Source: Candidatus Methanoperedentaceae archaeon
GTDB lineage: Archaea; Halobacteriota; Methanosarcinia; Methanosarcinales; Methanoperedenaceae
Direction: 5' to 3'
Assembly: GCA_003104905.1 (NCBI GenBank)
Contig: PQAS01000040.1
Span: forward strand, 1 to 43,350
DNA length: 43,350 nt
In this document: positions 2,497-9,740 of the stretch, one piece after another
Layout of the letters: each line of letters opens with the position of its first letter
How positions within the stretch are numbered: position 1 is the first letter of the stretch
Position numbers and translations under genes: made by a program
The notes under the pieces: generated by a model
What the model was told of the DNA's origin: nothing
Seen by the model: the letters and a program-made list of their open reading frames with translations, nothing else
Database searches by the model: none

Positions 2497-2530
2497 TTGT
2501 TTATATGCATAATTATAATGAGGGATACTT

Positions 2531-3580
2531 TTGGCAACCAGGAAGAAAATAAAAAAAACATCTGCAGCGCCCATAAAGGAAAGCAAGACATTATTTATTG
2601 GGATTGACTTTGGAACTAACCATACTGCAATATCCACAAGCGATGGAAAGAAAAAGAGCATCTTGAGCCTTGTGGGGATCCCGAAGGACGCAATAGCATC
2701 AAAATTCCTGAAGAAAGAACGTCTCTATGGTGATGAAGCATTAAAGCACAGGGTTGCCCTTAACATGTTCAAACCGATCGAATCGGGATTGATAAAAAAC
2801 CAGAGAGACGACCTGGAAGCTGCAAAAGGCCTGCTGGATTACGTATTGGGACTTGTGGATGCAAACAGGGATGTAAAAAAGTATGCAATTATAGGTGTTC
2901 CGTCCCAGGCAAGTGTACTTAATAAAAAGATCATTACAGAAATATTAAAAGATTCCTTTGATGGTGTAATGGTTGCAAGCGAACCATTTTGTGTAGCATA
3001 TAACCTGGGACAACTGGAACATGCCCTGGTAGTTGATATTGGCGCAGGAACTACAGATATTTGCAGGGTGCATGGTACCCTTCCGGAGACTGATGACCAG
3101 ATAAGCAGCAACAAAGCAGGTGATTTTATTGATTCTGAATTGGTGAGGCTTATTTCCGAAGAATATACAAATGTAAGTGTAACAAATGAGATGGTCAAAC
3201 GATGGAAAGAACAGAGTTCATTCGTTGGTGAACCCGAAGAAGAGATCGTTGTGGACGTACCTGTTGAATCTTCCATACTCAAATTATCAATCACAAAAGA
3301 AATAAAAAATTCATGTGAGTCCATTATCCCGGATATAATAAGCGGCATCTCCAAATTAATATCCACATATGATCCTGACTTCCAGGAAGAGTTAAGGAAT
3401 AATATCTGGCTGGCAGGCGGAGGAAGCCAGATCAGGAACCTCGATGTGGAACTGGAAAAGGAACTGGAATTAATAGAAGGCGGAAAGGTCTTTAAGGATA
3501 CGGATCCGGTTTTCAGCGGCGCAAATGGAGCATTGAAACTGGCCCAGGACATGCCGCCTGAATTCTGGCAAACCACATAG
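2531..3580 (+). CDS. MamK-family actin-like protein
   Basis: The 349-residue length fits bacterial MamK (about 347). Actin/Hsp70-superfamily motifs occur in order: phosphate-1 loop FIGIDFGTNHTAIST near residue 23, the MamK-like segment VGIPKDAIASKFL near 50, LVVDIGAGTTDICRVHG (phosphate-2) near 165, and LAGGGSQIR (adenosine motif) near 295. The C-terminus MPPEFWQ resembles the MamK ending LPPQYW. By comparison from memory, the match is much closer to MamK than to crenactin, MreB or DnaK. MamK polymerises with ATP and positions magnetosomes in bacteria; no magnetosome genes are seen here. The first ~20 residues are lysine-rich and extra. The start is TTG at 2531. It ends in TAG directly followed, in the same frame, by the next gene. 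Family assignment is strong; the cellular role is unknown. Confidence 0.85.
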   Translation: MATRKKIKKTSAAPIKESKTLFIGIDFGTNHTAISTSDGKKKSILSLVGIPKDAIASKFLKKERLYGDEALKHRVALNMFKPIESGLIKNQRDDLEAAKGLLDYVLGLVDANRDVKKYAIIGVPSQASVLNKKIITEILKDSFDGVMVASEPFCVAYNLGQLEHALVVDIGAGTTDICRVHGTLPETDDQISSNKAGDFIDSELVRLISEEYTNVSVTNEMVKRWKEQSSFVGEPEEEIVVDVPVESSILKLSITKEIKNSCESIIPDIISGISKLISTYDPDFQEELRNNIWLAGGGSQIRNLDVELEKELELIEGGKVFKDTDPVFSGANGALKLAQDMPPEFWQTT

Positions 3581-4198
3581 ATGCTGGATGAATTTACTGG
3601 ATCTCCAATCGAAACCCAGCGAAAGTGGTTGAAATTTCTCCTTGAGAGAGTCGGCCACAACAACCTCCCAAAACTTCTTAATTATTATGTGAGCATAGGC
3701 TGGATAAGCGAATCCGCATCTATCAGGCTCCTTGAGATAGCAAGTTTGGAAAAACGCTATAAGGGGACATCCTGGACTCTTTCTGCCGAAGAGCAAAGAA
3801 TTTCAAGGTTTTTTATCGAGAAGCTAAAAGGGGGAGAAATTGAAGATTCTCTTCTAAATGTGCATGTTCCTGGAAAAGCAAGGCCGGATATTGAAAGAAA
3901 GATTGAGATAAGACAAACCGAACGTATTCATCCTGTAGAAAAAAAGAAGATGGAGATCAGTATACACCGCCGCGAGGTCACTATCAATAACCTTGAACTG
4001 GAACTTGAAGAAAAGTATGCGCAAATAGAACAACTCAAGGAAAGGATACGGAAACTTGAAACCGCTTTTGAAGAAAACCGGAAGGAACTGATGAAAAATA
4101 AGATTTATATGGATCTAATGGATCAGAACATCAGGCTAAAAAAAGCAGTTCGTCCCGAAAAATCAAAACGAATGCGCCGATCTAATCATCTTTCTTGA
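3581..4198 (+). CDS. FlaD/E-domain coiled-coil protein
   Basis: The first ~85 of 205 residues look like the archaellum FlaD/FlaE domain: RKWLKFLLERVG, then LPKLLNYYVSIGWISE, then an LLEIA helix, and AEEQRISRFFIEKLKG, matching the family pattern of W-x-FL-x-ERVG, YYVxIGWISE and FIEKL-G. Residues ~115-185 are a charged heptad-rich coiled coil. FlaD/E proteins sit at the cytoplasmic side of the archaellum motor and link to the chemotaxis adaptor. This one has no archaellum genes around it and follows the MamK-like actin with zero spacing (TAG then ATG) and in the same frame, without a Shine-Dalgarno sequence of its own. I infer a partner or adaptor of the actin. Its last bases overlap the convergent PPOX gene. 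Confidence 0.75.
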   Translation: MLDEFTGSPIETQRKWLKFLLERVGHNNLPKLLNYYVSIGWISESASIRLLEIASLEKRYKGTSWTLSAEEQRISRFFIEKLKGGEIEDSLLNVHVPGKARPDIERKIEIRQTERIHPVEKKKMEISIHRREVTINNLELELEEKYAQIEQLKERIRKLETAFEENRKELMKNKIYMDLMDQNIRLKKAVRPEKSKRMRRSNHLS

Positions 4199-4658
4199 AT
4201 TTCACTGATTTGAAATGGGGGCCTTTCCAGTACACCATTTTCTCAACATTTATCTGTACTATGACATCATTCTCGCCAAGGGGCTTATTCTCTATGACTT
4301 TCTGGTATTTGCTCTTGAATTCCAGATAAATGTCGGTATATAATTGCAGTGTCTCTTCAGAGAGGAAATATATTGGCGCCCTGTCAGTAATGATCGCCCT
4401 GCCCTGGGCCATAACTCCTTCATTATTGAAGGGATTTACCGGGTCCCTGATATCTATGGTTATACTGACATTTGGGTTTTCACACAGGTTCTTGACCTTT
4501 TTTGATCTCTCATTCGTGATGAAGAAAAGTTTCTGGGAATTCTCATCATATATGAAAAAAACCGGAGTCAAGTGCGGCTGGTCATTTTTATCGCTCGTGC
4601 ATACATAACCGAAATAGTTGCTGTAAAGGATATTTCGCATTTCTTCAGGTATTCGCAT
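4182..4658 (-). CDS. Pyridoxamine 5'-phosphate oxidase-fold (PPOX) flavin-binding protein
   Basis: A 158-residue single-domain split-barrel protein. The N-terminal MRIPEEMRNIL followed by FGYVCTSDKNDQPHLTPVFFIYDE and the later LFFITNERSKKVKNLCENPNVSITID pattern is typical of the PPOX class that binds FMN or F420. The substrate is not predictable. The ATG at 4658 is chosen because a GGTG Shine-Dalgarno sequence lies just upstream and the preceding gene stops at 4661; a longer frame from 4697 would overlap that gene. It forms an operon with the upstream membrane-PPOX fusion and overlaps the end of the FlaD/E-like gene by 17 bases (convergent). Confidence 0.82.
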   Translation of the reverse strand: MRIPEEMRNILYSNYFGYVCTSDKNDQPHLTPVFFIYDENSQKLFFITNERSKKVKNLCENPNVSITIDIRDPVNPFNNEGVMAQGRAIITDRAPIYFLSEETLQLYTDIYLEFKSKYQKVIENKPLGENDVIVQINVEKMVYWKGPHFKSVKFKKDD

Positions 4659-4660
4659 GT

Positions 4661-5887
4661 TCACACCGGGACGCTTATTTGTTTTGCCCCTCTCCAATAA
4701 ATTATCTTAACCGGCTTTACTTCAACAAGTATCCTTGCAATAATTGGCGTCAGCTGCCAGGCTTTTGGCAATTCTGATGTAGAATATTTTTTTGTATATT
4801 CGGGATATTTTTTCATAAATAGCAAAAGTGCCTGTACCATGTGAATAAACCGGAAAGGGATATCCATAATACCGTAGATTTTGACTTCTCCGGTAAACAG
4901 GACGGCTTTGTTTTGATATATATTGCTCATATCCCTTTTATCTATCAGGAATGCAACTTTGTTGTTTTCCTGCATGATCTTTAACTTTCTTGCTTCTTTT
5001 GAAGTATTGAACAGTATCTTCTGCCCGTCAAAAACATAAACAACTGGCGTTACATGAGTTTTTCCTTTCAGTGAAGTGCCGATATATGCAAAACTTGACT
5101 CCTTCACAAGATTATAGATGTCAGGCGGTAGCCACGGTACTTTTGAGATAATATAGGCCGAAATAAGTGACGTAAGTGTTACAAAAACCATAAAGAAAAA
5201 TATGGTCGCTACCAGGAAATTATCTGTCTTGAAAAGAGGTAATAAAAGAAGGGAAATAAGCCCGAAGAAGACATTATTTATATCAAGCTGCTGCAGGTAT
5301 CGAAGTTCGGTGTATGGGGTATGTTCGAGTTCCGTTCTTTTTTCGGCAAGTTTTTTTAACCGCACAGATCTCCATAGCGCAAGGACTGATGTCCATATCC
5401 CAAGCCCCATCCTGTAGCAAATATCCCATATCAGTAGACTTACGAACACTAATAAAATCACATGTGGATCTTTTCCAAGCCACATATCCAGTAAATCTTT
5501 ACCAAGATAGAAAATATACAGCATAAAAGGAAAGAAAATAACAAGCCCTGGCAATGCCTCATAATGATTTCTATGGAAAAGTATCTTCTTATACCGCTCG
5601 AGCAAGTCATTTTCATCCTTGCTTAGAGGAGCCCTGAATTTTCGCAGTGTTGGCGCAAGCTGCAGGATTAGGTGACTCCATGATACTGCGACAAGGATTG
5701 CAAGTGAGCCGTATAACAGGGAAATTAGCCCGAGCTCAAATATAAAACCAAATAAGATACCCAGAACAAGGAGCAATAACAATTGCAGCAGTATGCTGTA
5801 TTTGTAGGATACAAGGGAAAATGGAGGTATCCTGCCTACGATCTCTTCATAAATCCACTTCTTTTCTTTTCTGGCGTCATTTTCCAT
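4661..5887 (-). CDS. Membrane protein with C-terminal PPOX-fold domain
   Basis: The N-terminal ~260 residues hold several hydrophobic segments: a pair near 30-75, two around 110-150 with LLVFVSLLIWDICYRMGLG, and a pair near 200-245. The C-terminal ~150 residues are a PPOX-type split barrel: FAYIGTSLKGKTHVTPVVYVFDG, then ILFNTSKEARKLKIMQENNKVAFLID, the same core as the next gene. This suggests duplication and fusion of a flavin/F420-binding domain to a membrane anchor. The start at ATG 5887 is preferred; a TTG at 5899 would add four residues. No clear Shine-Dalgarno sequence is seen. It is 2 bases from the downstream PPOX gene. Function unknown; a membrane-tethered redox or cofactor-binding role is inference. 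Confidence 0.78.
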   Translation of the reverse strand: MENDARKEKKWIYEEIVGRIPPFSLVSYKYSILLQLLLLLVLGILFGFIFELGLISLLYGSLAILVAVSWSHLILQLAPTLRKFRAPLSKDENDLLERYKKILFHRNHYEALPGLVIFFPFMLYIFYLGKDLLDMWLGKDPHVILLVFVSLLIWDICYRMGLGIWTSVLALWRSVRLKKLAEKRTELEHTPYTELRYLQQLDINNVFFGLISLLLLPLFKTDNFLVATIFFFMVFVTLTSLISAYIISKVPWLPPDIYNLVKESSFAYIGTSLKGKTHVTPVVYVFDGQKILFNTSKEARKLKIMQENNKVAFLIDKRDMSNIYQNKAVLFTGEVKIYGIMDIPFRFIHMVQALLLFMKKYPEYTKKYSTSELPKAWQLTPIIARILVEVKPVKIIYWRGAKQISVPV

Positions 5888-5954
5888 TCGATGTTTCAAT
5901 GTGAGGCATTAATAATAAATCCATATCCAGTATCAGACATGAGGGCTTCCTACC

Positions 5955-8095: not shown

Positions 8096-8812
8096 ATGGT
8101 CTTACTTGAGATCAAAAGTATTTCATACCGGGTAAAAGAAAAAGAAATTTTTTCCGGACTTTCGCTTTCAGTAGAACCCGGGGAAGTACATGCTATCCTG
8201 GGAAAAAATGGGACCGGAAAAAGTACCCTTGCATATCTGGTCATGGGATGTGAGGGTTACATTCCAACAACCGGAGAGATATTGTTTGATGGTAAAGCCA
8301 TAAATCACCTGTTGCTACACGAAAGGGCAAAACTTGGAATAACGATGGCATGGCAGGAGCCTGTGAGGTTTGAAGGTATTTCCGTAAGGGAATATTTGAC
8401 CCTCAAGAACAAGGAGATCGATCCTTCAAAGTATCTTGAAATGGCAGGACTTTATCCCGGGCTTTACCTGAACAGGATGATGGACAATACCCTTAGCGGC
8501 GGAGAAAGAAAAAGAATTGAACTTGCATCCGTGGTTGCTCTTGATCCCAGGCTTGTCATCCTTGATGAGCCCGATTCCGGCATAGACATGCTTTCAATCC
8601 GGGATATCTTGAATGTCATCACCGTATTCAAGGAGAACGGGGCATCCGTCATCTTAATTACACACAGGGAGGAAATCGCAATTATCGCTGATAAGGCTTC
8701 TGAGATATGTAACGGGAAAATAATATGCTCTGGCGCCCCTGTGAAAGTGACCCAATATTATAAAACAAGGAAATGTGAAGTATGTGCAGGGGAGGAATGT
8801 ACTTTTGTCTGA
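8096..8812 (+). CDS. sufC: Fe-S cluster assembly ATPase SufC
   Basis: The 238-residue ABC ATPase carries Walker A GKNGTGKST near residue 37, a Q-loop in ITMAWQEP, signature LSGGERKRIE near 135, Walker B LVILDEPDSGID near 158 and the switch His in ILITHREE. The WQEP and DSGID segments are typical of SufC rather than of transporter ATPases, and the next gene is its scaffold partner. The SufBC complex builds Fe-S clusters, which are in heavy demand in methane-cycling archaea. A GGGGGGAC Shine-Dalgarno sequence precedes the ATG. Oddity: the last residues contain CEVCAGEEC (C-x2-C-x4-C), a possible extra metal or redox site. Confidence 0.9.
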   Translation: MVLLEIKSISYRVKEKEIFSGLSLSVEPGEVHAILGKNGTGKSTLAYLVMGCEGYIPTTGEILFDGKAINHLLLHERAKLGITMAWQEPVRFEGISVREYLTLKNKEIDPSKYLEMAGLYPGLYLNRMMDNTLSGGERKRIELASVVALDPRLVILDEPDSGIDMLSIRDILNVITVFKENGASVILITHREEIAIIADKASEICNGKIICSGAPVKVTQYYKTRKCEVCAGEECTFV

Positions 8813-9740
8813 GCTTGATGAATTGCTGAAATCATTTGGAGAAGCCGGCGGTGATCAGAGTATCCTGGCAAATACGGCTTTTGCACATCTGGCCGCAAGC
8901 GGTCATAAGATATTGAGTAGAAGAGCGGTTAAAGGTATTGAATTAGACACAGTAGAATCCGATAAAGGTATTTCTGCCACTGTAAGACTACTAAAAGGAA
9001 CCCGCCTATTGAATCCGGTGCATCTTTGTTTCGGTGTGCTTCACAGGAGCGGTATTCAAGAAATAAATATGAGGGTCAACTTTGAAAAGGATTCACAAGC
9101 AAGTTTTATTGCTCATTGCATTTTCCCAAAAGCCGAAAAAGTAAAACACATAATGGATGCGGTAATCCACATCGGTGAAAATGCAACCATGAGATATTCC
9201 GAAATTCATTATCATGGGATATACGGAGGAATAGAAGTATATCCGAAGGCCAGGATAATTATTGGAAAAAACGGGAGATACTTCACGGATTTCCTGTTGA
9301 TCAATGGACTTGTGGGAAAGCTGATGATTGATTATGGGGTTGAAGTTGGCGAGAATGGCGTGGCGGAATTAATTGCGCGTGTGTTTGGACATGCCACGGA
9401 TAATATTTTAATAAAGGATAAGGTTGCGCTTAATGGTGTGAATTCAAAGGGGCTTATAAAAACAAGGGTGGCTATCGAAAACAATGCTCAGGCGCAGGTA
9501 ATAGGTGTTACCGAAGGTAACGCCAGGGGAGCAAGGGGACATGTTGACTGCATGGAAATAGTAAAGGATAACGCTATTGCAAAAGCTATTCCTTTAGTAA
9601 AAGTGTCAAATTCGCTCGCAAAAGTGACGCATGAAGCCGCGATCGGAAGTGTTGATAAAAAGCAGCTCGATACACTCATGGCGCATGGGCTCGCTCCGGA
9701 GGAAGCTGTAGACGTGATAGTGAGGGGTATTTTGAAATGA
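8805..9740 (+). CDS. sufB: SufB/SufD-family Fe-S cluster scaffold protein
   Basis: At about 311 residues it is a short archaeal SufB/D, shorter than the 400-490 residues of bacterial proteins. The beta-helix core is recognised by VKDNAIAKAIP-type and THEAAIGSVDKKQLDTLMAHGLAPEEAVDVIVRG, the conserved SufB/D C-terminus. I choose TTG at 8805: GGGGAGG at 8789-8795 lies nine bases upstream and it overlaps the sufC stop by eight bases, which suggests translational coupling. A GTG at 8775 would force a 38-base overlap and put the GGGGAGG inside the gene. It should accept nascent clusters in the complex with SufC. No SufS, SufE or SufU is nearby. Confidence 0.88.
   Translation: MSELDELLKSFGEAGGDQSILANTAFAHLAASGHKILSRRAVKGIELDTVESDKGISATVRLLKGTRLLNPVHLCFGVLHRSGIQEINMRVNFEKDSQASFIAHCIFPKAEKVKHIMDAVIHIGENATMRYSEIHYHGIYGGIEVYPKARIIIGKNGRYFTDFLLINGLVGKLMIDYGVEVGENGVAELIARVFGHATDNILIKDKVALNGVNSKGLIKTRVAIENNAQAQVIGVTEGNARGARGHVDCMEIVKDNAIAKAIPLVKVSNSLAKVTHEAAIGSVDKKQLDTLMAHGLAPEEAVDVIVRGILK

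Follow-up and report, generated by a model that had tools for sequence, protein, structure and literature searches.

A MamK-related actin and its adjacent coiled-coil partner form a conserved gene pair of Methanosarcinales

The window (the whole stretch of DNA that was analysed, 43,350 nucleotides, one contig of a Ca. Methanoperedens MAG) encodes a MamK-related actin of 349 aa (positions 2531-3580, plus strand), directly followed by a coiled-coil protein of 205 aa with a FlaD/E head (positions 3581-4198, plus strand), and this pair is a conserved unit of Methanosarcinales. The pairing, which the original prediction had noticed at this single locus, recurs in all 41 loci read, where a coiled-coil gene lies directly downstream of the actin gene on the same strand. 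These loci represent four lineages in three families, namely Methanoperedens, family f2, genus g27 and genus g24, the last being Methanolobus, as a Methanolobus sediminis plasmid and the 3,506-base second contig of its genome G120 are identical. In L106, L107, L109, L111 and L112 the partner extends past the contig edge, and in L077 it is broken by masked bases; beyond these two genes, the lineages have none in common across the 41 loci. The long coiled-coil partner probably ties the actin filament to something in the cell. Little is known about the cytoskeleton of methanogenic and methane-oxidising archaea, and the pair represents a two-gene actin system of both uncultured methane oxidisers and a genus that includes named species and complete genomes (Methanolobus). 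The coiled-coil partner had apparently not been described: no paper on the pair was found among open-licence papers, an earlier mention elsewhere being possible, nor was any found there for MamK with Methanoperedens or for Methanolobus with an actin-like cytoskeleton, while papers naming Methanoperedens, actin and cytoskeleton together deal, by title or abstract, with other subjects.

The actin gene starts with TTG, at the same column where the proteins of relatives begin, and a putative Shine-Dalgarno element, GAGGG, is read six bases ahead of it (2520-2524, plus strand). As aligned and tabulated with its relatives, the protein contains the phosphate-1 motif GIDFGTNHT (2600-2626, plus strand), the phosphate-2 motif VVDIGAGTTDIC (3029-3064, plus strand) and the adenosine motif LAGGGSQI (3410-3433, plus strand), all three of which are intact in the window actin and in the members outside Methanolobus. 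Among the NCBIfam models, MamK (NF040964) gives the highest score (392 bits, E 1.7e-117), ahead of BeeR (NF053558; 203 bits, cut-off 530), MreB (62 bits, cut-off 293) and salactin (NF053533; 35 bits, curated cut-off 400), and no DnaK/Hsp70 model is close in the profile comparison, which bears out the earlier preference for MamK over MreB or DnaK. The best PDB matches are likewise the MamK structures 5LJW, 5LJV and 5JYG (E about 1e-72; 1.7e-72 for 5LJW), followed by BeeR (8R2N). On the MamK model the window actin lies between the two controls, BeeR (224 bits) and MamK of AMB-1 (542 bits), and relatives reach 371 bits in f2, 381 bits in g27 and 195-281 bits in Methanolobus. The original label 'MamK-type' is softened here to 'MamK-related', as MamK is indeed the closest family but the score falls 8 bits short of the curated value of 400, no magnetosome genes were seen nearby and the tree does not favour MamK over salactin as the neighbour. 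The actin family is coherent in the tree, with weak support for the branch that sets it apart; a topology holding the family and MamK together has p 0.44, the alternatives are likewise not rejected, and this long-branched tree, with one MamK sequence, does not settle whether MamK, salactin or BeeR is the sister of the family. Values of dN/dS are 0.05-0.27 for the actin and partner genes, synonymous changes far exceeding amino-acid changes, so that both are under purifying selection. No relatives of the actin were found in viral contigs.

MamK is thus the known actin to which the window protein is most readily compared, as it matches over the full length, provides the closest solved structures and has the nucleotide motifs and the C-terminal PPxFW/YW end in common with it. 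The window actin differs in being archaeal, in its lower score and in its setting, since no magnetosome genes occur in the scanned neighbourhood; a magnetosome-actin relative without magnetosome genes seen beside it bears on the role of this branch before or besides magnetosomes. Coiled-coil proteins that work with MamK and Mad28 are known from deep-branching magnetotactic bacteria, as in Desulfovibrio magneticus RS-1 (PMC12748827), a likeness to the present actin and partner at the level of description. BeeR of Verrucomicrobiota is also a MamK-related actin outside magnetotactic bacteria, presented in the consulted passages of its description (PMC11929497) as a relative from non-magnetic bacteria; these passages describe no coiled-coil partner, and the window actin is far under the BeeR cut-off. 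Salactin, from Haloarchaea and other Methanotecta, is the described archaeal actin nearest MamK (PMC10746226), but the present family is much nearer MamK by score, and salactin forms a separate long branch in the tree and was not found in seven sampled Methanosarcinales genomes.

The actin stop and the partner start form a TAG|ATG junction (3578-3583, plus strand), in agreement with the coordinates and zero distance originally given; the gap is exactly 0 in 17 of the 19 Methanoperedens loci, which is consistent with coupled translation. A fusion of actin and partner by translational read-through is rejected, since the actin ends in a true stop codon, TAG or TAA, and a single genome shows a 1-base gap. 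The FlaD/E head of the partner (3623-3832, plus strand) matches PF04659 at residues 15-84 (51 bits, E 1.3e-13, gathering cut-off 21), as had been claimed, and is predicted to fold into four helices and a hairpin (pLDDT about 80-94). It is followed by a linker marked by a dip in pLDDT (3851-3931, plus strand) and by the universal C-terminal coil, here called the tail (3905-4150, plus strand), which is predicted as a single helix with a core pLDDT over 90. Accordingly, the AlphaFold model built with 19 relatives consists of a compact head (residues 10-90), the low-confidence linker and one helix of 73 residues (118-190; pLDDT mostly over 90). A read-through pseudo-complex of both proteins (stop taken as Gln, 18 genomes) gave an uninformative pLDDT of 51. 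Searches of the PDB with the partner gave nothing significant by fold (best E 1.5) and no match by sequence.

Heads of the FlaD/E type are present on the partners of Methanoperedens, f2 (34-39 bits) and g27 (29-31 bits) and absent from those of Methanolobus, which carry in their place an unrelated N-terminal segment with a basic FTPNIYRKP motif. What all four lineages have in common is the tail of about 75 residues at the C-terminus, and the emphasis thus shifts from the FlaD/E domain to this coil. A tail profile made from Methanoperedens only matches the extreme C-terminus of 15 partners in other lineages and has 0 matches in reversed, heptad-shuffled or C-terminally cut controls; the aligned tails share an I-H-R start and an N-x-x-L end (IHR...N..L) and in f2, g27 and Methanolobus their end points almost coincide. 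Head and tail are separated by a spacer that can be as short as about 25 or longer than 1,700 residues, and total length is 190-214 residues in Methanoperedens, 450-607 in Methanolobus, 630 or more in g27, and 1,657 and 1,940 in two f2 genomes. The rods contain few prolines and glycines, and those of g27 and f2 have a hydrophobic period of 3.5 residues (the heptad) at a strength of 4.2-4.4 against 1.0 in shuffles, the period being weaker in some Methanolobus partners. Two Micrarchaeota loci (L005 and L006) with a weak partner match were set aside, as they contain only a short FlaD/E protein, with no actin and no tail; the frame is 152 aa long and shares 47-50% identity with the partner head over about 45 residues.

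The actin occurs in 54 of 186 Methanosarcinales genomes, namely 19 of 31 in Methanoperedens, six in f2, 26 of 27 in g24 and three in g27, and in a phylum sample of 393 genomes it is confined to this order. Every actin-bearing Methanoperedens genome has both genes and the other 12 have neither, with at least five gains or losses of the pair on an rpoB tree of 29 genomes, although the co-loss of neighbouring genes is expected whatever their function. Across the order, whose genomes are related to one another and hence not independent counts, tail (E<1e-10) and actin co-occur in 52 genomes, while the tail alone is present in two (G058 and G121, in which no actin was found) and the actin alone in two (G062 and G069, where the contig ends within the partner). 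By sequence, then, the tail is found almost only in actin-bearing genomes. It is also present on proteins unlinked to the actin: most Methanolobus genomes encode a second coiled-coil protein of about 287 aa (MSEELYY...; for example L163 6201-7064, L165 5617-6480 and L171 6017-6880), of which the scanned copy matches no Pfam family; g27 encodes a protein of 82-83 aa that is little more than a tail (L166 5168-5419 and L167 5675-5923); and G058, one of the tail-only genomes, encodes one of 239 aa (L168 6877-7596). As it stands unlinked in Methanolobus and almost by itself in g27, the tail is probably a mobile docking or oligomerisation module; the scanned neighbours of these unlinked genes give no functional clue.

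A new cytoskeletal or positioning system, as suggested in the original prediction, is the most likely class for the pair, and with a little more than even confidence we take it to be a tether device, in which the actin provides a filament, the partner tail docks on it and the head holds a cargo or a membrane platform. The MamK-related actin would bind ATP and form filaments, as expected from its family, and an elongated oligomer of the partner would dock on the filament or its subunits through the C-terminal tail, a contact suggested by the conservation and co-occurrence of the tail, which could instead be an oligomerisation end. The head, located at the opposite end of the protein, would then hold the cargo or platform, with the length of the rod setting its distance from the tail; a fully coiled rod of 1,600 residues would measure about 240 nm. 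Such a device would tether or position a load along its actin track, in the way that MamK handles magnetosomes but with an adaptor of its own, and in Methanoperedens the zero-gap stop-start junction may fix the ratio of the two proteins. Polymerisation driven by ATP may be lacking in part of the family, given the degenerate phosphate and adenosine motifs in seven Methanolobus actins (L113, L114, L115, L119, L122, L123 and L125), where the drift includes GTxxT to GMFKT and GAGTTD to GASKLD, and also GGTS, and where some have lost the catalytic glutamate; these proteins are perhaps without a normal ATPase cycle, or their nucleotide cycle may differ. A wider and rather doubtful extension of the tether reading is a modular skeleton peculiar to Methanosarcinales that positions organelles or granules, with an actin track, a standard tail, swappable heads and varied rods, and that would serve as the archaeal counterpart of actin tethers. 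Polyphosphate granules are then a candidate cargo in Methanolobus, given that 10 of 13 loci there have genes for a polyphosphate kinase and then a Ppx/GppA phosphatase directly upstream of the actin gene and in the same orientation (L113 953-5917 and the corresponding stretches of L114, L116 and L119-L125).

The main alternative, itself unlikely, is that the partner is a regulator of polymerisation whose C-terminal helix binds the groove of the actin so as to sequester or cap its subunits, the head and rod merely localising this activity. The model for it is arcadin-2, which is encoded with crenactin and uses a short conserved helix at its own C-terminus to depolymerise it (PMC5173319), and the tail is likewise a conserved C-terminal helix with nearly the same end residue in three lineages. 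The 'arcade' cluster of crenactin and arcadins thus resembles the present pair, by description, as an archaeal actin with a dedicated partner acting via a C-terminal helix (PMC5173319), yet it involves a different actin subfamily and several arcadins as against one partner here. A rod of 450-1,940 residues would be needless for a sequestering peptide, and the conserved stretch comprises about 75 residues of coil as against the 17-residue peptide of arcadin-2.

It is less likely still that the Methanoperedens pair positions the archaellum or a chemotaxis input, with the head inserting into or mimicking the ArlCDE switch complex. The original prediction that no other archaellum, chemotaxis or magnetosome genes are present holds for the scanned parts of the window, but the genome elsewhere, on other contigs, has an archaellum, represented by a fused FlaC-FlaD/E protein and six archaellin matches. 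The partner head is homologous to the archaellum FlaD/FlaE (ArlD/ArlE) domain (PF04659) and has about 41% identity with the copy in this genome; in Haloferax, FlaD has a polar location (PMC6509185), and archaellins are present in all pair-bearing Methanoperedens genomes over 80% complete, all of which speaks for such a role. However, the domain order is inverted, as the FlaD/E domain stands first in the partner, ahead of the coil, and C-terminal after a coil in the archaellum copy (FlaC at 89-142, FlaD/E at 260-349); no significant FlaC domain is found in the partner, and the pair genes lie outside the archaellum cluster. Many archaellated Methanoperedens lack the pair, and Methanolobus combines archaellins with partners that have no FlaD/E head. 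The pair does not depend on the archaellum: four f2 genomes, G034 (100% complete), G038 (97%), and G067 and G069 (80-83%), contain the pair with its FlaD/E-headed partner and have neither a listed archaellin nor another FlaD/E gene. The FlaD/E head therefore works without an archaellum, at least in f2, where heads occur in complete genomes without one on proteins of up to 1,940 residues. This speaks against archaellum work as the general function of the pair but leaves room for a special use of that kind in Methanoperedens. With the head absent in Methanolobus and independent of the archaellum in f2, the description of the second protein as a motor-platform-type adaptor placed the weight on the wrong end. 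In genomes that have no archaellum, FlaD/E, a known part of the archaellum switch, here serves as a detachable head, so that the question of what it binds becomes testable outside motility.

It is improbable that the pair serves DNA segregation or cell division in the manner of ParM or FtsA. Plasmid ParM-ParR systems also consist of an actin and one dedicated partner in an operon, but in those partners that were scanned no DNA-binding domain came up, both the window and the complete Methanolobus loci belong to chromosomes, a plasmid search gave no match, and a third of Methanoperedens genomes do without the pair, so that division does not require it. That two independently useful genes merely stay together by descent, as adjacent genes are co-inherited in any case, is hardly credible, since their order is kept across families while all other neighbours changed and the tail, unlinked genes included, tracks the actin across the order.

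The scanned neighbours of the pair in the window are housekeeping genes, including those for a glycosyltransferase, flavin-type oxidases, one-carbon metabolism and amino-acid metabolism. Among the 19 Methanoperedens loci, 11 have a helix-turn-helix gene and a PEP-synthase-type gene after the pair, while eight have pyridoxamine-oxidase-type genes on the opposite strand, as in the window. The window contains two overlapping genes of this kind on the minus strand (4182-4697 and 4661-5899) with related pyridoxamine-phosphate-oxidase-type domains, that of the longer gene (4661-5899) being fused to DUF7530. Further along (8096-9740), SufC-like and SufB/D-like genes overlap by 38 bases, all of them scoring under the curated cut-offs. 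At nine of the 10 Methanolobus loci with the polyphosphate genes, the next gene further upstream is also common to the loci, and in L113, the copy scanned, it encodes a CHAD-domain protein.
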